A DNA stretch of 64,000 nt from Anaerolineae bacterium (GTDB lineage: Bacteria > Chloroflexota > Anaerolineae > Aggregatilineales > UBA3940), in assembly GCA_016926255.1 (NCBI GenBank), contig JAFGOY010000013.1, positions 66,139 through 130,138 of the forward strand, given 5' to 3'. The first letter of the stretch is position 1. Every line of letters begins with the position of its first letter. The notes below the pieces were generated by a model that saw nothing but the letters and a program-made list of their open reading frames with translations, had not been told where the DNA came from and did not search any database. Position numbers and translations under genes: made by a program. Shown here in pieces: positions 830 through 38,957 of the stretch.

Positions 830-1870
830 TTACCGGTACAGATCGATCACATGATCGGTGAGCAGGCTGGTGAGGCCCATCGCTTCGCGGGCTTCGGCGA
901 CGGTGTCCTGGGCAATCGGACGGGCACGATTGGCCCCCGCACGCAGGATGTCGATCACATCGTCGGGGCGCTCTTCGAGAAAACGGCGGCGCTCACGGAT
1001 CGGATCGAGGAAGGCATTGAGCTTCTCGACCAGCACCTTCTTGCACTCGACATCGCCGATGGTGCCCTGGCGATAGCGTTCCTTGAACTCGGCGACCTGC
1101 TCGACATCCGGGTTGAACAGGTCGTGATAGATAAACAATGGATTCCCCTCGACGGTGCCGGGGTCGGTGGCGTGGATGCGATTCGGGTCGGTGTACATGC
1201 TCATCACCTTCTTGCGCACCTCGTCAGCGGAGTCGGAGAGCATGATCGCGTTGCCCAGCGACTTGCTCATCTTGGCCTGCCCGTCGACGCCGATCAGGGT
1301 CGGGGTATCTTCAGGGATCATACCTTTAGGGATCGGGAAGACCTTGCCAAAACGCTGGTTGAAGCGCCGGGCAGTCTCGCGGGTGACTTCGATGTGGCTG
1401 GCCTGATCCTTGCCAACCGGCACCAGATTACCCTTGACGATCAGAATGTCGGCGGCCTGCAACACCGGATAATTCAGCAGTCCAGCCGATGGCTCCTCGA
1501 TGTGGAGATTGTTCATCACATCTTTCAACGTGGGGACTCGCTGCAAGCGCGGAACGGTATTGAGCATCGAGAAGATCAGGGTCAGCTCTGCCGTTTCAGG
1601 GACATCGGATTGAAGATAGTGGGTGACCTTTTCGGGGTCGACCCCGGCGGCGTAGTTGTCGATCACGACGTCGAGCGCGTTCTGGCGCGTGCGGATGACG
1701 TCTTCTTTTTCGGGGTGCGTGGTGAGCGTGTGATAATCGGCGACCAGCAGGAACAGATCATACTCGTCCTGGAGTTTGGCCCGGTTCTGCAAAGTGCCGA
1801 TATAGTGACCGAGATGAAGTTTTCCGGTGGGGCGGTCGCCCGTCAGGATGCGTCCCTTCTTCTTTGCCAT
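830..1870 (-). CDS. trpS: Tryptophanyl-tRNA synthetase
   Basis: Class I aminoacyl-tRNA synthetase that charges tRNA-Trp. The 346-residue protein is the usual bacterial length. The class I signature appears as KLHLGHYIG near residues 17-25 (HIGH motif) and AKMSKSLGN near residue 200 (KMSKS loop). The central part has the TrpRS-typical [10 protein letters not shown] and [12 protein letters not shown] segments. The ATG at 1870 is preceded by GAGGAG (14 bases upstream) and a closer AAGG. Expression is very probably controlled by the T-box leader directly upstream (1905-2244), transcribed from its own promoter (2251-2280). The gene stands alone as a regulated unit. Confidence 0.97.
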
Positions 1871-1904
1871 AAAGTCCTTGTTTTCTCCTCAACTAATTCG
1901 TTCG

Positions 1905-1950
1905 AAATAAAAACGCCCGTCCCGCTGATCGATCAGCATTGGGACGAGCG
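1905..1950 (-). terminator. Rho-independent terminator inside the trpS T-box leader
   Basis: On the minus strand, CGTCCC-(13 nt AT-rich inner stem and loop)-GGGACG with an extra CGC/GCG extension is followed by TTTTTATTT (1913-1905). It sits just downstream of the T-box core at 1961-1971, the standard terminator/antiterminator arrangement. Confidence 0.88.
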
Positions 1951-2244
1951 AAATGCCCGTGGTGCCACCCACATTAAGCCAGCGCTTCCCTCGGATTAAA
2001 TAAAAATCCCCGTGATGAAACACAGGGGAGAGAGCCAGCTTCACTCAGATGAGTACCGCAAACTGCGATATCAAGCATTGGTAACGGATGCTGCCCCGAC
2101 CAGGACTACTTGACTCTTTCGCCCTGGCAACTCCCCGGCCCATTCGATATCTGCGCGCGTACCACCTTTTCAGCGACCGGTGGCTCTCTAAACGCCGCTT
2201 CGATATGTACTACTCCGGTTCATTGTCGTTTTGATATTCAACTA
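1905..2244 (-). promoter_or_regulatory. T-box riboswitch leader of trpS
   Basis: Read on the minus strand, the leader of about 340 nt shows the T-box hallmarks. Near its 5' end is the AGAGAGC...GCTGAAAAGG segment typical of stem I. The conserved T-box core TGGGTGGCACC lies at 1971-1961 with an ACGGG context. It is followed by an intrinsic terminator (1950-1914) ending in TTTTTATTT, which the T-box core would disrupt on pairing with uncharged tRNA. A UGG triplet at 2142-2140, in GAATGGGCC, is the best candidate for the tryptophan specifier codon. The T-box class is well established; the exact specifier position is inference. Confidence 0.92.
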
Positions 2245-2250
2245 AGCGAC

Positions 2251-2280
2251 AGTGTATCAGAGTTTTGAGCGGCGTGTCAA
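2251..2280 (-). promoter_or_regulatory. Sigma-70-type promoter for the trpS leader
   Basis: On the minus strand a consensus TTGACA (2280-2275), an 18-base spacer and TACACT (2256-2251). The predicted start is near 2244, directly at the 5' end of the T-box leader. Confidence 0.8.
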
Positions 2281-2295
2281 GGGGGAAAATCGAAG

Positions 2296-2330
2296 ATAAA
2301 AGCAAGCGCCTGGACAAAACCAGGCGCTTG
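2296..2330 (-). terminator. Terminator of the CBS-ACT gene
   Basis: Perfect 11-bp hairpin CAAGCGCCTGG / CCAGGCGCTTG (2303-2330) followed on the minus strand by CTTTTAT. It lies 24 bases past the stop of the CBS-ACT gene and just before the trpS promoter, insulating the two units. Confidence 0.88.
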
Positions 2331-2353
2331 ATAATGGTCAAAGGACTACATCA

Positions 2354-3028
2354 TCAGCCATATTTCAATAGTTCGTCCTGGCGGTTGGGACGGATCGTCA
2401 GGATTTTGACACACTCCAATTTGCTGAGCATTTCCCGAAGCTGTTCCTCATTCGCGCCCCGTTCCTTGATGCTGATAATCCCGGTCGATTGGTCCGCCCC
2501 TCTGAAGGTTGTCAGGGAAACAATGCTGCTGTTGATATCCGCGAAAGCCTTGCAGATGTTTGCCAGGGAACCGACCTCGTTTTCTATTTCGATCTCAACC
2601 CGGAAGCCCGGTTCGCCACCGCCCATCACCTCGACGACCGTCCTGAAGATATCGGCCTCGGTGATGATCCCGATCAACTTGTCGTCACGCATCACCGGAA
2701 GCGCGCTGATCCGGTTCTCGATCATGAACTGCGCCGCCGTCGTCAGGCTGCAATCTTCCTGAATGGCCAGCACAGGGCTGGACATGATCTGCTTAAGCTC
2801 CATTTTGTCGAGCAGTGTCCTGATCTCATAGACACTCAGCGTGGTGGCCTTTGATGGCTCCGCATTGTGAAGGTCTTCGCCTGTGACAATACCGACCAGC
2901 TTCCCCGACTTATCCAGAATCGGCAGGCGGCTGATCTGGTGGTCTTTCATTAACTGGACAGCTTCGCGGTGGGTCGTAGTGGGTGCTGCGGTGATCGGGT
3001 TGGGGGTCATGCGGTTCTTAACTTCCAT
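2354..3028 (-). CDS. CBS-CBS-ACT regulatory protein (AcuB-like)
   Basis: A 224-residue soluble protein with two CBS modules followed by an ACT domain. CBS1 begins MTPNPITAAP and ends with GIVTGEDL. CBS2 runs from MSSPVLAIQE to GIITEADIF. The ACT part starts at FRVEIEIENEVGSLANI, with the usual Gly-Ser-Leu turn. CBS pairs bind adenosine nucleotides and ACT domains bind amino acids or other small ligands, so a ligand-sensing role is likely; the target is unknown. AcuB of Bacillus has this architecture. The ATG at 3028 fits the AAAGGAG site 11 bases upstream; a GTG at 3040 would overlap that site. It has its own terminator at 2296-2330. Confidence 0.88.
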   Translation of the reverse strand: MEVKNRMTPNPITAAPTTTHREAVQLMKDHQISRLPILDKSGKLVGIVTGEDLHNAEPSKATTLSVYEIRTLLDKMELKQIMSSPVLAIQEDCSLTTAAQFMIENRISALPVMRDDKLIGIITEADIFRTVVEVMGGGEPGFRVEIEIENEVGSLANICKAFADINSSIVSLTTFRGADQSTGIISIKERGANEEQLREMLSKLECVKILTIRPNRQDELLKYG

Positions 3029-3089
3029 TATGGTACACACTCCTTTGCCAATTGATGGTCATCCAGAAGGCAGTCACCACGTGTGCCCA

Positions 3090-3117
3090 GTTCAACGGCT
3101 TTCGGCGCTGAACTGCA
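3090..3117. other. Inverted repeat upstream of the CBS-ACT gene
   Basis: CAGTTCA...TGAACTG, a perfect 7-bp arm pair around a 14-base centre, about 60-90 bases upstream of the CBS-ACT start. No T-tract follows. It could be an operator or a leader hairpin; nothing identifies a binding protein. Confidence 0.35.
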
Positions 3118-3277
3118 GGGCTTGAGATGGTCACAATCAATCAGTGATGGCTTTTCATAAAAGGTCTGCATACTATTCTGCTGATCTATATTATATCTAT
3201 TTTTACCATTTGAATGCCGGACAATTTTATATCAGTATGGAAAGCGGAGAATGATAGTTGGAAAGACCACACCATCA

Positions 3278-3622
3278 TCAACCGGGCGGCCAGCCGAAAC
3301 GACGCCCCGCCAGTAGGTGAACATGAATGTGAAACACACTCTGCCCGGCGCTCCGACCGCTGTTGACGACCAGCCGGAAGGCATCATCGACGCCGATCTG
3401 CTCGGCGACCAGCCGCGCCGCGATCATCACGTCACCCATCACCGCCGCGTCAGCCGGTTGGAGATCGGCAATGCGGGCGATGTGCTTCCGGGGGATGATC
3501 AGGATGTGGGTCGGGGCCTGCGGATGGATGTCACGAAAAGCCAGCACGGTACCGGACTCGTAGACGACATCGGCAGGATGAAGCCCGGCGGCAATCTGGC
3601 AGAAAACACAATCATTCACCAT
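3278..3622 (-). CDS. HIT-family nucleotide hydrolase
   Basis: A 114-residue cytoplasmic protein of the histidine-triad superfamily, probably the HinT-like branch that hydrolyses purine nucleoside phosphoramidates or related AMP conjugates. The active-site motif HIHVH is at residues 98-102 (H100 would be the nucleophile), followed by LLAGRRFGWPPG, the HinT-type C-terminus. N-terminal Cys5 and Cys8 (CVFC) match the zinc-binding pair often found in bacterial HIT proteins. Also visible are FRDIHPQAPTHILIIPRKH and VVNSG. ATG at 3622 with GGAG six bases upstream. Confidence 0.95.
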   Translation of the reverse strand: MVNDCVFCQIAAGLHPADVVYESGTVLAFRDIHPQAPTHILIIPRKHIARIADLQPADAAVMGDVMIAARLVAEQIGVDDAFRLVVNSGRSAGQSVFHIHVHLLAGRRFGWPPG

Positions 3623-3755
3623 ACCCTACTCCGATCATTGTCGAACAACGGCCTGTAAGATGGTTCCAGTATACGAACAGGTGGGAAGGTCGACAAGAAA
3701 GGCCCATACAGCGGCGGTATAATATCCGGTGGACAGCAAGCAAAGGAGATACCTC

Positions 3756-4379
3756 ATGAAACCAAAATGGCTGGCATGGGCCAGGCAGCTTCATTCGCTG
3801 GCACGCGGTGGGTTGACTTACTCAGATAACCCATTCGAGATCGAGCGCTGCCACAAGATGCAGGCTATCGCCGAGGAGATGTTCGCCAGCCAGAGCGACG
3901 AAGAACCGGAGGTAATCGCCGGGCTGTTTTCCGAGCAGGCCGGATACGCGACGCCCAAAGTCGACGTGAGGGGCGTGGTCTTCAAAGATGGCAAGATTCT
4001 GCTGGTCAAGGAGCGGATCGACGGTGGATGGACGCTTCCGGGCGGCTGGGCCGATATCGGGGATTCGCCATCGCGAGCAACCGAACGCGAGGTCTGGGAG
4101 GAATCGGGATACGAGACGAAGGCGGTCAAGCTGCTGGCCGTCTATGATCGGGACGATCCACGTCACGGGCATCCCCCTCACCCGTTCTACATCTACAAGC
4201 TGTTCTTCCTGTGCGAGCTGACCGGCGGCGAAGCGAAAAGCAGCATGGAGACAGACGGGGTCGGGTTCTTCGGCGAGGACGAAATCCCGGCGCTGTCGGA
4301 GGGAAGGACGACCGAGAGCCTGCTCCAGCGGATGTTCGAGCATCAGCGCCACCCGGATTGGCCGACCGATTTCGATTAA
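3756..4379 (+). CDS. Nudix hydrolase with N-terminal NUDIX_hydro_N domain
   Basis: A 207-residue protein. The first 65 residues (WLAWARQLHSLARGGLTY onward) resemble the helical NUDIX_hydro_N domain; the Nudix fold follows. The Nudix box reads GGWADIGDSP with REVWEESGYE: the REVxEExG part is intact, while the first acidic residue is Asp instead of Glu, a position I recall as variable in this subfamily. Family members hydrolyse nucleoside diphosphate-linked compounds; the substrate cannot be read from sequence. The ATG at 3756 has AAAGGAG eight bases upstream, which supports it over an in-frame start at 3729. Confidence 0.9.
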   Translation: MKPKWLAWARQLHSLARGGLTYSDNPFEIERCHKMQAIAEEMFASQSDEEPEVIAGLFSEQAGYATPKVDVRGVVFKDGKILLVKERIDGGWTLPGGWADIGDSPSRATEREVWEESGYETKAVKLLAVYDRDDPRHGHPPHPFYIYKLFFLCELTGGEAKSSMETDGVGFFGEDEIPALSEGRTTESLLQRMFEHQRHPDWPTDFD

Positions 4380-4455: not shown

Positions 4456-4492
4456 AGATGAGACATCAATCAAAATCGGAAAGGCTAACACT

Positions 4493-5305
4493 ATGTATGT
4501 AGACCCATCGGCGGTTACACTGCCAATTGCCATACTCGCGGGATTGATATCATTCGTATCGCCGTGCGTCCTCCCGCTGGTCCCAGCGTATATCGGCTAC
4601 CTGACCGGGCAGGCGGCGAACACAGCCAGCAGTTCGCTGGCAGCGGAAGAATCGACGGAGACGGCATCCCCCTCACGGTGGACAGTTTTCCTGCACGGGG
4701 TATTCTTCGTCATTGGATTTTCACTGGTTTTCGTGCTGCTCGGCATCGGGGCAGGGGCAATCGGGCAGTTAGGGCGACAGTTCCTCCGGGTCACCGACTG
4801 GGTGATACGGATCGGCGGGGTACTGATCATCATCCTGGGCCTGCATATCATGGGCGTCATCCGAATCCCGTTTCTGTACTACGATACACGGAAGCAGACC
4901 AAACCCCGCCCGGAACTGGGATACGCAGGATCGTTATTCATGGGTATCACTTTCTCGGCGGGCTGGTCACCATGCCTGGGGCCGATCCTGGCGGCGATGC
5001 TGACACTGGGCCTGAGCACCGGATCGGCGGGGCGGGCTGCTCTATTATTGACTGCCTACGCAGCAGGACTGGGAATCCCGTTCCTGCTGACCGCACTCCT
5101 GCTCGACCGGGCGACCGGGCTGCTGCGCAGCCTAAAAAAGCACATGCGGGTGATCGAGATCGTCAGCGGGCTGCTGATGATCGCCATCGGCGTGATCATC
5201 GCTTCGGGGCTGCTCCAGCGGCTCTTAGGCCCTCTCGCAGCGGGGAGCGATCTTTCGCTGAAGCTCGACGAGTGGCTGGTCAGGTTGATTGGAAGTGGCG
5301 AATAA
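4493..5305 (+). CDS. ccdA: CcdA-family thiol:disulfide membrane transporter
   Basis: A 270-residue integral membrane protein with about six transmembrane helices, the normal size of CcdA (DsbD transmembrane core). The first helix carries LAGLISFVSPCVLPLVPAYIGYLTG, the conserved PCxLPLxPxY motif, and a second cysteine lies in AGWSPCLGPILAA. These two cysteines shuttle electrons from cytoplasmic thioredoxin to extracytoplasmic thiol proteins, in cytochrome c maturation or envelope redox repair. The next gene, 73 bases on, contains a glutaredoxin-like domain, so the two may form a redox pair. No other cytochrome c maturation genes are visible. Confidence 0.95.
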   Translation: MYVDPSAVTLPIAILAGLISFVSPCVLPLVPAYIGYLTGQAANTASSSLAAEESTETASPSRWTVFLHGVFFVIGFSLVFVLLGIGAGAIGQLGRQFLRVTDWVIRIGGVLIIILGLHIMGVIRIPFLYYDTRKQTKPRPELGYAGSLFMGITFSAGWSPCLGPILAAMLTLGLSTGSAGRAALLLTAYAAGLGIPFLLTALLLDRATGLLRSLKKHMRVIEIVSGLLMIAIGVIIASGLLQRLLGPLAAGSDLSLKLDEWLVRLIGSGE

Positions 5306-5378
5306 CCTCAACTCGATTACAATTGGCCCAGCATGAACGAGTTAAACGATCACCCAGACTATTCCAGAATGGCGATTT

Positions 5379-6410
5379 ATGACTGTAGACATAACCTTTT
5401 TTTCAAAACCAGACTGCGACCCGTGCGATGTAATCCGAAGTGAGCTTGAAGAGATCGGGAAGACGATTCCGGTCAACGTGACCGAGATCGACGTGACCGC
5501 CGAGGAAGCGGCCTACGGAGATTACACCGACAGCGTCCCGATAATACGGATCGGGGCGCAGCGGCTCGAAGCCCCGATCGACACCGAGGACTTAAAAGTC
5601 GCGCTGGTGACAGCTGCCGCAGAGCAGGCAGCGTCGACAAAAGAACCGGTGACTGGAAACAAGCGTAAAGTCGTGATTGCGCTGGACAGAGGCATTTTGT
5701 GGTTTTCACGCCGCTGGGTGATCCTGCTGTCGATCCTATCGCTGTTGTACGCGGGTATCCCATTCCTGGCCCCGGTCGCCATCGAAACCGGGCATCCGAT
5801 GATCGCCAGGGCGATCTACCGACTGTACAGCCCGCTCTGCCACCAATTCGCGTTTCGATCCTGGTTTTTGTACGGGGAACAGGCCGCCTATCCGCGAGAG
5901 GCGGCGGGGGTGGAGGGCGGCAGTTTCGAGGACTACGCCAGCCGCGATCAATTCTTCGACGGGGTCGACGTCCATACGCTCGACGATGACCTGATCTACG
6001 CGGCCAAGCAGTTCGTGGGCAATGAAGAGATGGGATGGAAGGTCGCGTTTTGTGAACGCGACGTCGCCATCTACACCGCGATAGCCCTGTCCGGGTTCCT
6101 GTTCATGATCCTGAAGCGGGCAGGAGTCAAAGTGCCTTATCTACCTTTCTGGGCCTACGTGCTGATCGCGCTGGTGCCGATGGGGATCGACGGGGTGAGC
6201 CAGTTCTTCGCCAATCCACCGTTCAACGGGTTCGGATTGGCCTTCTACCCGATCAGAGAGAGCACCCCACTCCTGCGGGTGATCACCGGGGCGCTGTTCG
6301 GGCTGGGGAACGCCTGGTTAGCCATTCCATATGTCGACGACAGCATGGAAGAAACCGAAGAACTGGTACTCAACAAGCTAAAAAAGGCCGGAAAACTGCC
6401 TTTTAGCTAG
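5379..6410 (+). CDS. Glutaredoxin-like domain fused to a DUF2085 membrane domain
   Basis: A 343-residue fusion. Residues 1-80 form a glutaredoxin/thioredoxin-like domain with the CDPC motif at residues 13-16 and a SVPIIRIGAQRL segment with the expected cis-proline. A charged linker leads to about four transmembrane helices. The membrane half shows DUF2085 marks: SPLCHQFAFRSWFLYGEQ after the first helix, and AFCERDVAIYTAIALSGFLF later. DUF2085 function is unknown; its conserved Cys/His/Arg residues face one side of the membrane and could bind metal or react with thiols. Its place right after ccdA suggests a membrane redox function. That role is inference; the domain order is seen directly. Confidence 0.85.
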   Translation: MTVDITFFSKPDCDPCDVIRSELEEIGKTIPVNVTEIDVTAEEAAYGDYTDSVPIIRIGAQRLEAPIDTEDLKVALVTAAAEQAASTKEPVTGNKRKVVIALDRGILWFSRRWVILLSILSLLYAGIPFLAPVAIETGHPMIARAIYRLYSPLCHQFAFRSWFLYGEQAAYPREAAGVEGGSFEDYASRDQFFDGVDVHTLDDDLIYAAKQFVGNEEMGWKVAFCERDVAIYTAIALSGFLFMILKRAGVKVPYLPFWAYVLIALVPMGIDGVSQFFANPPFNGFGLAFYPIRESTPLLRVITGALFGLGNAWLAIPYVDDSMEETEELVLNKLKKAGKLPFS

Positions 6411-7181: not shown

Positions 7182-9653
7182 GTGTCAGACGATCTCATAG
7201 GACGGCACCTGGGACAGTACGAAATCGTCGAGTTCATCGGCGGGGACGATCTGACCGAGGTCTACAGGGCAGTATATCACCCAGAAGATGACCCATTGGA
7301 GCGGGAAGCATCGGTACTGGTCAAGATTGTTGGCCGACAGCAGGGGGAAGACCCGGTCTTCAATACACGCTTCCGGCGCGAAGCGCGGGCCATCGCCGGG
7401 CTGCGACATCCGAACATCGTCCGTATCCATGACTTCGGTCATGCCGAAAACGGTCACTATGTGATCATGGACTATATCGACGGGGAAACGCTGGCCGACG
7501 TGATGGCGCAGGCGCAGCGGAGAGAACGCCGTCTCGACATGGAAGATATCACGTTCATCATCCGGCAGATCGCCTCGGCGCTTGACCACGCCCACAGCCA
7601 GGGCGTTGTCCACCGGGCGGTCAACCCGCACACGATCATCATCACCCGGAGCGGGCAGGCAATCCTGGCCGACTATGGCCTGTCACTGCTTTACAGCCGG
7701 GACCGTGAAGGCGAGAACCCGGACGTGATCGCCAGCCCAGCCGAATACATGGCCCCGGAACTGGTGTACGATCCACGCGCCGCGACCCCGGCCAGCGATG
7801 TTTACTCGCTGGGCGTGATTCTCTACCAGCTTCTGACCGGGCAACTTCCTTTCGAGTTTGGCTCAGATATCGATATGGCGCTGCAATCGCTGGGGGAGAC
7901 CGCCCCCGATCCGCGCCTGCTCAACCCGGACATATCGGTCGATATTGCGGCGGTCACCTTGAAAGCGCTGGCGAAAGAACCAAAAGAACGATTCTTACGG
8001 GCGATGAAGATGGCCGCTGCCTTAGAGCGGGCCGCTTACCCCGATCCGCGCGCGATGCGGGCATACAAACGTCACCAGCAGCAGGAAACAATCGCATCAC
8101 GGCCAACCGCCGAACGGCTGGTCGTCCACCGGGGGCCGCCTCGACGCGAAGAACGCCGCCGGATGAAGCAGATGCGGGGCGATTACAAGGGAATTCAGCA
8201 AGAATCTGGGGTGGAAGGCGTGCGCATCCGGCGTCCGCTGCGGCTGGTGCCGGTCAACTGGCTGCGCTGGGCGGCCTTCGCAACGGCGGTGATCGTGATC
8301 CTGATTGCAGGAGCGTTCGTACTGGATGCGCTGGGCATCCTCCGGCTGCCAATGGGGAGCAGCCAGCTAACAGTCGCACAGATGACGGCAACGGCCCAGG
8401 CGACGATCACGCCAACGATGACACCGGAACCCCCGACGGCGACGCCGCCCCCTACCCTGACCCCGCTGCCGACCCCGACTCCGCTGGCAGTGGCCGAATC
8501 GACGCCGGTTCCGGCGCTCGAATATGCGCTGCTTGGCGCAGGCTCCAGCGCTTTCCGGGTTGAAGACGGCGCGGCGATCCAGTTCGTTCCGGCGGGAACC
8601 TTCATGATGGGTTCCGACGACCCGGAAAGGAACGAGGACGCCCACCCACAGCACGCAGTGATGCTGAATGATTACTGGATCGACCAGACGGAAGTAACCA
8701 ACGATCAATACGCATTGTGCATTGAAGCCGATCTGTGCCAGCCACCTATCTCAACGCAGTACTACAGTGACCCGAACCGGGGCGATCAGCCGGTGGTGTA
8801 TGTGACCTACACGTATGCGGTCACCTACTGCCTGTGGCTGTCGAGCGTCACCGGGCAGGCCATCGGGCTGCCAACCGAGGCCCAGTGGGAAAAAGCGGCG
8901 ACATGGGACCCGGACGCTGAAGAAGCTCGCCTGTATCCCTGGGGCAACGAACCGCCGGACGGGACGCTACTGCGCTTCCTCGACGGCCCGGTGTGGGGAA
9001 CTGCAAATGTCGGCAGCTACCCGGACGGGGCGAGCGCCTACGGCGTTTTCGATATGGCGGGGAACGTCTGGGAGTGGACGACTGACTGGTATGGGGCCTT
9101 CACCTACCAGCGGAACGGCATCCCGGTCGATCCGACCGGCCCGGCGAGCGGCAACCAGCGAATCAACCGGGGCGGCGGCTGGGCACACAGCGCGACTTAC
9201 ATGCCAAGCGCGATCCGCAACGCAGCCAACCCGGATGCATCCGGGAACGATCTTGGCTTCCGCTGCGCGATGGCCGGAAACCGCCCGCCGCAGTCGAGCG
9301 GGATCGTGATGACACCGCTCGACCTGGTTGCGGAACTCAACAAGCGGCTGGATGCGGAACTGGCTTCGCTTGAAGGCGACGTACGGCTGATCGACGACTG
9401 GCGGGCCGCCCTCGACGTTTTGAACTGGTCACTGGTGCGGGATGACGACGCGCAGGCATTGACGACGATCAACGACGGGCTGGCGGCGATCAAGGTTCAG
9501 CGGCGAGACAACCAGATATCGGCGAGACTGGCCCAGCAGCTTGAGGGCGGCTTACAGTGGATCAAATTGCAGATCGAGCCGGTCGAAGAGGCAGGCAACG
9601 CTGAGGCAGAAGCCGGGGAGCCGACGGAAGGTGAAGCGGGCGAACCAGAGTAG
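7182..9653 (+). CDS. Membrane-anchored pseudokinase with C-terminal SUMF1/FGE-like domain
   Basis: An 823-residue protein starting at GTG 7182 after GAGGT. Residues 13-280 have the Hanks-type Ser/Thr kinase fold: K48 (VLVK), E67 of helix C, D164-Y-G in place of DFG, APE at 191-193 and SDVYSLGVILYQLLTGQLPFE. The catalytic loop, normally HRDxKPxN, reads HRAVNPHTI (144-152): catalytic Asp, Lys and Asn are all replaced, and the Gly-rich loop is degenerate. Phosphotransfer is therefore unlikely. A transmembrane helix (about 363-385) and a Pro/Thr-rich linker lead to a SUMF1/FGE-like domain (about 465-697; MVPAGTF-type start, GNVWEWTTDWYG, GFRCAM). Its active-site segment RGGGWAHSATY lacks the catalytic cysteines. 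A helical tail follows. The fold calls are firm; loss of both activities is inferred from residues. Confidence 0.92.
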   Translation: MSDDLIGRHLGQYEIVEFIGGDDLTEVYRAVYHPEDDPLEREASVLVKIVGRQQGEDPVFNTRFRREARAIAGLRHPNIVRIHDFGHAENGHYVIMDYIDGETLADVMAQAQRRERRLDMEDITFIIRQIASALDHAHSQGVVHRAVNPHTIIITRSGQAILADYGLSLLYSRDREGENPDVIASPAEYMAPELVYDPRAATPASDVYSLGVILYQLLTGQLPFEFGSDIDMALQSLGETAPDPRLLNPDISVDIAAVTLKALAKEPKERFLRAMKMAAALERAAYPDPRAMRAYKRHQQQETIASRPTAERLVVHRGPPRREERRRMKQMRGDYKGIQQESGVEGVRIRRPLRLVPVNWLRWAAFATAVIVILIAGAFVLDALGILRLPMGSSQLTVAQMTATAQATITPTMTPEPPTATPPPTLTPLPTPTPLAVAESTPVPALEYALLGAGSSAFRVEDGAAIQFVPAGTFMMGSDDPERNEDAHPQHAVMLNDYWIDQTEVTNDQYALCIEADLCQPPISTQYYSDPNRGDQPVVYVTYTYAVTYCLWLSSVTGQAIGLPTEAQWEKAATWDPDAEEARLYPWGNEPPDGTLLRFLDGPVWGTANVGSYPDGASAYGVFDMAGNVWEWTTDWYGAFTYQRNGIPVDPTGPASGNQRINRGGGWAHSATYMPSAIRNAANPDASGNDLGFRCAMAGNRPPQSSGIVMTPLDLVAELNKRLDAELASLEGDVRLIDDWRAALDVLNWSLVRDDDAQALTTINDGLAAIKVQRRDNQISARLAQQLEGGLQWIKLQIEPVEEAGNAEAEAGEPTEGEAGEPE

Positions 9654-38630: not shown

Positions 38631-38957
38631 ATGGCAAAACCCTTAACATTTACCGACAGCAACTTCGAGGAAGATGTGCTCGATGCCAATATGCCCGTAC
38701 TGGTCGACTTCTGGGCTGAATGGTGCGCCCCGTGCAAGATGATAGCACCCATCGTCGAAGAACTGGCGAATGAGTACGATGGCAAGTTGAAGGTCGGCAA
38801 GGTCGACGCCGACACTAACATGAATACCATGCAGGCCTTCGGTATCCAGGGCATCCCGACGCTGATCCTGTTCAAAGGCGGAGAGGCCGTCGAGCGGATC
38901 ACCGGGTTCATGCCGAAAGAGCGCCTGGTCAACCGGCTGGCACCGCATCTCGAATAG
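38631..38957 (+). CDS. trxA: Thioredoxin
   Basis: A 108-residue thioredoxin with the normal fold and length. The active site is [14 protein letters not shown] (C32, C35); Ala replaces the more usual Gly between the cysteines, a common natural variant. The cis-proline is in [14 protein letters not shown]. It reduces protein disulfides in the cytoplasm and could supply electrons to the CcdA protein at 4493-5305, as inference. AGAGGAG precedes the ATG by about 9 bases. It has its own terminator. Confidence 0.97.

Follow-up and report, generated by a model that had tools for sequence, protein, structure and literature searches.

Glutaredoxin-DUF2085 fusions beside ccdA in Chloroflexota point to a redox link of the DUF2085 membrane domain

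According to PMC9145763, ResA receives electrons that CcdA takes over from thioredoxin in the cytoplasm, and CoxB and Sco are reduced by TlpA. The locus analysed here shares with this CcdA/DsbD pathway (ResA, TlpA, CcmG) a CcdA protein, a cytoplasmic thioredoxin-fold partner and, in some related loci, an extracytoplasmic TlpA-like partner, but differs in an additional four-helix DUF2085 protein, which brings a glutaredoxin (Grx) domain and a putative outward Cys-His/Cys motif of its own. To our knowledge, DUF2085 belongs to none of the described CcdA/DsbD-type relays. VKOR-type enzymes, whose thioredoxin domain is extracytoplasmic, have four helices and an outward Cys site, and our protein resembles these and other thioredoxin-fused membrane oxidoreductases in combining such an architecture with a fused thioredoxin-fold domain. 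Yet its Grx domain is N-terminal and predicted to be cytoplasmic, and neither a sequence search of solved structures nor fold searches with Foldseek and VIA matched it to VKOR-type oxidoreductases. A third system is DsbD-DsbG-YbiS of E. coli, which is said to protect L,D-transpeptidases, as Depuydt et al. reportedly found in 2009. There, as in relatives of our locus, an L,D-transpeptidase is tied to a reductant carrier in the membrane; in the Chloroflexota loci, however, the tie consists of gene order only (a YkuD gene before ccdA) and there is no DsbG, the E. coli protein that interacts with single-Cys transpeptidases (PMC3526765). The literature searched for CcdA together with Chloroflexi, lipoproteins or glutaredoxin, from which subscription papers are largely excluded, contained no description of a DUF2085-CcdA link; a single paper in it mentions DUF2085 (PMC6997564), in a table line among methyl jasmonate-induced myxobacterium genes, unrelated to a CcdA-type relay.

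The window, i.e. the whole stretch of 64,000 nucleotides that we analysed, contains the following features:

4493..5305, + strand: ccdA, transmembrane thiol carrier of the DsbD_TM family (PF02683; own-family HMM 2.2e-98)
5306..5378, + strand: intergenic gap of 73 bases between ccdA and the fusion gene, which lie on the same strand (from the coordinates)
5379..6410, + strand: Grx-DUF2085 fusion gene, ATG start, open reading frame of 343 residues
5385..5627, + strand: N-terminal glutaredoxin-like domain, predicted cytoplasmic (HMM match over these bases; PF05768 at residues 5-75; thioredoxin-fold matches)
5415..5426, + strand: CDPC redox motif, residues 13-16 (translation, alignment)
5682..6365, + strand: DUF2085 membrane domain with its N-terminal helix (HMM match; four predicted transmembrane helices, both termini inside)
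5838..5861, + strand: C154-H155 ... R160-S161 motif, predicted extracytoplasmic (47/47 relatives)
6051..6062, + strand: C225-E226-R227-D228, where the second membrane helix begins, predicted to be on the outer side (alignment)
6189..6194, + strand: conserved D271-G272 (47/47 relatives)

The sequence-only reading had described a CDPC thiol domain joined to a DUF2085 membrane domain, directly downstream of ccdA. This description holds, the coordinates of the reading frame being exact, and both domains score above their Pfam cut-offs. The N-terminal domain reaches 33.8 bits (cut-off 26) against PF05768 (Glrx-like), with CDPC as its CxxC, and is by this score glutaredoxin-like, its thiol-disulfide reductase activity being only predicted. 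The membrane domain reaches 51.3 bits (cut-off 25) against PF09858 (DUF2085) at residues 219-313 (6033-6317), covering profile positions 13-89 of 90. Its score above the family cut-off is the likeness to typical DUF2085 proteins; the differences are about 45 extra residues between the RS strand and the CxR motif, an Asp in place of the second Cys of CxRC, and the Grx domain fused N-terminally. The Pfam definition of DUF2085 is a profile cut-off and does not include the Cys-His plus Cys-x-Arg-Cys pattern; compared to the paralogues L001, L005, L020 and L024, the window protein has C154-H155 and C225-x-R227 with Asp228 in the fourth position, and so lacks CxRC.

CcdA scores 60.7 bits against PF02683 (cut-off 27.1), and its translation contains Ser-Pro-Cys twice, a feature that we take to be typical of CcdA; the cysteine of the first motif is C25 (4565-4567). 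Beside ccdA, the window holds no TlpA gene, so that a complete DsbD-type relay is not encoded at this locus, and no L,D-transpeptidase gene. A TlpA-like stretch (HMM 1.2e-10) lies at 38691-38843, distant from ccdA.

Among 400 Chloroflexota genomes sampled, 181 contain DUF2085 and 162 a match to the window protein; DUF2085 was also found in an archaeon among 14 control genomes, and our searches of plasmids and of viral contigs yielded no relatives. The gene for the fusion or for DUF2085 adjoins ccdA in 29 of the 30 best loci of this phylum sample, the window being one of the 30. GTDB genomes, with the culturable Ornatilinea apprima and Leptolinea sp. HRD-7 among them, gave 575 candidate stretches encoding relatives; in the best 80 of these, which we kept, ccdA lies just upstream 75 times. 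The remaining loci are L102, L159 and L160, which are cut by a contig end, and L122 and L141, which are not. The fusion in L122 (7001-7981) has the site CN...RS and CERC, and no ccdA is near it despite 7 kb of upstream sequence.

Counting the window protein in both sets, a Grx domain is present in 31 of 47 aligned sequences of the phylum sample and in 74 of 81 rows of the GTDB set, where the seven rows without it include the misparsed L156 and also L102, whose N-terminus falls at a contig end. The 47-sequence alignment omits the misparsed L073, and A2 omits L156; A1 does not include L067, and A3 contains 65 of the A2 sequences. Both the fusion and the ccdA/DUF2085 neighbourhood thus recur in other genomes. 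The commonest gene order is L,D-transpeptidase (YkuD), CcdA, (TlpA), Grx-DUF2085, followed by genes that we take to be YlmD, YggS, YggT and DUF167; the YlmD neighbour, the only one of these four given a Pfam search, matched PF02578. In most fusion-bearing genomes, the linked CcdA is the best-scoring and often the sole CcdA.

The AlphaFold model of the whole window protein (mean pLDDT 94.1, pTM 0.82) has helices at residues 93-136, 226-247, 257-278 and 297-336; the model of the natural relative L101, which consists of DUF2085 only, has a mean pLDDT of 94.0 and a pTM of 0.89. From helices, hydropathy and charge bias we predict four membrane helices, with both ends and the Grx domain inside and the conserved motif outside, where the loop of residues 137-225 would lie. 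On average, Lys and Arg number 4.21 versus 1.14 Asp and Glu in the linker before helix 1, and 2.41 versus 0.02 in the loop between helices 2 and 3; the corresponding values are 6.49 versus 7.6 for the helix 1-2 loop and 1.07 versus 1.43 for the helix 3-4 loop. By the positive-inside rule, the membrane would separate the Grx domain from the conserved residues of DUF2085, and the two could not react directly, for which reason we rejected direct Grx-to-DUF2085 thiol exchange, the simplest reading. With Grx inside and the Cys-His and Cys-x-Arg-Asp residues outside, CcdA would have to link them.

Fold searches with the whole model returned mostly thioredoxin folds, over residues 1-92 (Z up to 10.8); therefore the membrane domain was modelled alone, from L101. 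Searched against the PDB, this domain had no clear match (best Foldseek E 0.44; best VIA match among 454 chains at Z 4.1, rmsd 6.1 over 134 residues), nor did we find a solved structure matching the membrane part by sequence. The missing PDB match does not prove that DUF2085 has a new fold.

We consider the chances evenly balanced that CcdA together with Grx-DUF2085 makes up a small module for thiol reduction across the membrane, with an outward DUF2085 thiol or metal-thiolate site, which would serve extracytoplasmic users of cysteine. In this module, for which we infer which way electrons flow and that CcdA reduces DUF2085, electrons would pass to CcdA from the cytoplasmic Grx domain, or from a stand-alone Grx protein in other families, and CcdA would carry them to the outer face. 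There they would keep the DUF2085 Cys pair (C154, C225) reduced, as well as TlpA where it is present. The pair, together with a His (155 or 160), would constitute an outward-facing thiol or metal-thiolate centre, and DUF2085 may serve neighbours that require a free extracytoplasmic cysteine.

A centre of this kind fits the conserved residues of DUF2085. In the 47 aligned relatives (window protein counted), C154, H155, R160, S161, R227, D271 and G272 are identical throughout, C225 is found in 46 and D228 in 45. The conservation of the Cys-His (C154-H155) and Cys-Glu-Arg (C225-E226-R227) motifs, to which the sequence-only reading had drawn attention, is therefore not due to chance (46-47 of 47). 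Among the 173 motif-bearing sequences (of 186), 143 have H155 with R160, 25 have another residue at 155 with H160, two have both His, two have neither, both of them with Cys at 228, and one could not be scored. On the tree, the His 155/160 swap amounts to seven changes with five independent pairs, of which three are compensated and two are not (sign test, median p 0.25); with so few pairs, the trend towards His compensation is suggestive only. A few relatives miss one of the two cysteines (L208, L215, L084). L084 (genome G088) carries two tandem DUF2085 genes at 4484-6096, one of them with Gly at 225 and Cys at 228.

These residues also bear on a possible, though rather unlikely, alternative, namely that DUF2085 is mainly an outer-face metal (zinc, copper) or heme site of two Cys and a His or third Cys, with the redox genes only keeping the ligands in the reduced state, in the manner of TlpA with Sco and CoxB. 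The H155/H160/Cys228 pattern of the 173 sequences is ligand-like, the Cys is shifted from 225 to 228 in L084, and paralogues such as the four named above have CH and CxRC. However, the compensation rests on the five pairs, the sequences were selected by a motif demanding both cysteines, position 228 is frequently Asn, a poor ligand, and no metal enzyme is a constant neighbour. In the thiol-reduction module, too, any metal would be conjectural.

The outer cysteines hardly vary, whereas loss of the Grx thiols is frequent. The CxxC is intact in 18 and missing in 13 of 31 fusions of the phylum set, and intact in 69 and missing in 5 of 74 fusions of the GTDB set; in the merged set, 19 of 100 fused rows lack it. 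The tree requires a minimum of 13 changes from intact to lost or back, and the Grx thiols are dispensable. A ccdA gene lies within 1.5 kb at 77 of 78 loci with an intact fused CxxC versus 23 of 37 others; counted by independent branches, a link between an active Grx and CcdA has 0.8 pairs for and 0 against, too few to be significant. No CcdA at all is present in G355, G311 and G290, three genomes of a single genus in which either the CxxC or the whole domain is gone. We rejected TlpA in the operon as an explanation for the loss of the Grx thiols, as TlpA is present at 9 of 19 loci with a 'dead' Grx versus 29 of 78 intact ones and the independent pairs are non-significant.

We compared the neighbours of DUF2085, counted if within 1.5 kb and on the same strand, across three groups of loci: group A, formed by similarity from the window and its 80 best relatives; group B, 20 further loci of the phylum; and group C, 60 loci hand-picked (and thus non-random) from matches to PF09858 and P0001, 59 with a DUF2085 match and one (L210) without. 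The counts rest on tblastn and HMM searches because some greedy ORF picks were in the wrong frame. In 26 of the 59 group C loci, a separate Grx gene, with CxxC in all 26, lies directly upstream of a compact DUF2085 gene; CcdA does not adjoin at these stand-alone Grx loci. TlpA is found beside DUF2085 in 34 of 81 loci of group A, 11 of 20 of group B and 9 of 59 of group C, and CcdA in 2 of 59 of group C. At least one of Grx, CcdA and TlpA is present at 35 of the 59 group C loci; none of the three is within 1.5 kb at 24 of these and at 7 of 20 group B loci. As a background, 470 kb of flanking sequence from all three groups, taken at distances above 4 kb, gave no Grx, no CcdA and two TlpA matches. 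The link of Grx, CcdA and TlpA to DUF2085 is strong, but not universal.

A pair of domains fused in one lineage and encoded by adjoining genes in another is a classical sign of a functional link, and the redox link gains independent support from the Grx genes that stand separately beside DUF2085 in other families. The proposal of the sequence-only reading that DUF2085 is a redox or metal-handling module thus holds in part: the fusion, the ccdA linkage and the separate Grx gene all recur, but Grx is predicted to lie opposite the conserved residues and its thiols can be dispensed with, and whether the role is in redox, metal or other chemistry we infer. Conserved neighbours can reflect inheritance of gene order, and in the extreme case there would be no shared biochemistry, with Grx a decaying passenger and DUF2085 unrelated to redox. 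The YlmD, YggS, YggT and DUF167 genes of the Anaerolineae operon, which have no clear redox role, and the frequent loss of the Grx thiols would agree with this, but we regard it as quite improbable, since many families, with dissimilar gene surroundings, repeatedly show redox partners (Grx, CcdA, TlpA) that are fused, adjoining and of different kinds, a pattern that simple inheritance leaves unexplained.

L,D-transpeptidases, Lgt substrates and apocytochromes c all require a free cysteine outside the membrane. The proposed thiol-reduction module might serve an L,D-transpeptidase in Anaerolineae, and other lineages might use it for the acylation of lipoproteins (Lgt, Lit) or the maturation of cytochrome c. 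For L,D-transpeptidases, the need for a free extracytoplasmic cysteine is documented in PMC3526765.

With respect to cytochrome c, genomes G144, G372 and G361 have the order CcmA, CcmB, CcmC, CcdA, (TlpA), DUF2085. We rejected a role in cytochrome c maturation only: CcmABC-CcdA-(TlpA)-DUF2085 occurs at L066, L067 and L078, but the window's genome (G000, 96 percent complete) has no match to CcmB of the System I pathway, for which 45 of 49 genomes examined were positive, and the common Anaerolineae operon is without any Ccm gene among those searched. In L068, a single frame of 713 residues (1698-3839) combines a DsbD_TM region with a C-terminal redoxin domain, and is followed by a second TlpA match and then DUF2085.

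Lgt and Lit were brought out by clustering of the DUF2085 neighbours, and Pfam confirms one representative of each. The order is Lgt-Grx-DUF2085-Lit in L214, L231 and L239, Grx-DUF2085-Lit in L199, L219, L232 and L234, Lgt-DUF2085-Lit in L220 and Lgt-DUF2085 in L193; Lgt and DUF2085 occur with CcdA or TlpA in L198, L221, L084 and L112, the last of which, a 48 percent relative of the window protein, reads CcdA-TlpA-DUF2085-Lgt. In L077, Lgt or Lit is about 3 kb from DUF2085, with TlpA between.

DUF2085 might accordingly act in lipoprotein maturation, for instance by keeping the lipobox cysteine reduced for Lgt or by acting between Lgt and Lit, with the Anaerolineae operon as a variant. The four-gene order, the L112 arrangement and the eight genomes in which Lit adjoins DUF2085 (listed coordinates compared by eye) argue for this, but we consider it quite improbable: only 14 DUF2085 genes have Lgt or Lit at their loci, of 160 loci with a DUF2085 match, most of the 175 Lit-bearing genomes (of 400) lack the Lit-DUF2085 adjacency, Lgt and Lit occur together without DUF2085 in G185, G038 and G056, and the window does not show the Lgt/Lit arrangement. 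The contigs concerned (G185:C341, G038:C6, G056:C332) carry adjacent Lgt and Lit genes and no listed DUF2085 gene.

Extending the thiol-reduction module to the whole family, DUF2085 might be an unrecognised membrane part of extracytoplasmic cysteine handling in Chloroflexota, of a fold not yet in the PDB. Its Cys/His/Cys centre would be recharged from the cytoplasm via Grx and CcdA and would keep acceptor cysteines usable, including the lipobox cysteine (Lgt, Lit) and the catalytic cysteine of L,D-transpeptidases; in this full form we consider the proposal unlikely. If it were true, the machinery that holds cysteines on the outer face in the reduced state would include one more membrane component in these bacteria. 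Almost one in two of the sampled Chloroflexota genomes has DUF2085, and its strong link to Grx, CcdA and TlpA suggests a role for this family that can be tested, singles out residues for mutagenesis and makes L,D-transpeptidase, lipoprotein acylation and cytochrome c candidate clients.

The window's genome contains a second, distant DUF2085 gene (G000:C19:127565-127879; L001 1309-2196) with CH and CxRC motifs. No Grx, CcdA or TlpA match lies beside it, and the frame upstream is presumably FtsH-like. The window also encodes, at 7182-9653, a protein kinase domain (PF00069) joined to a sulfatase-modifying-factor domain (PF03781).
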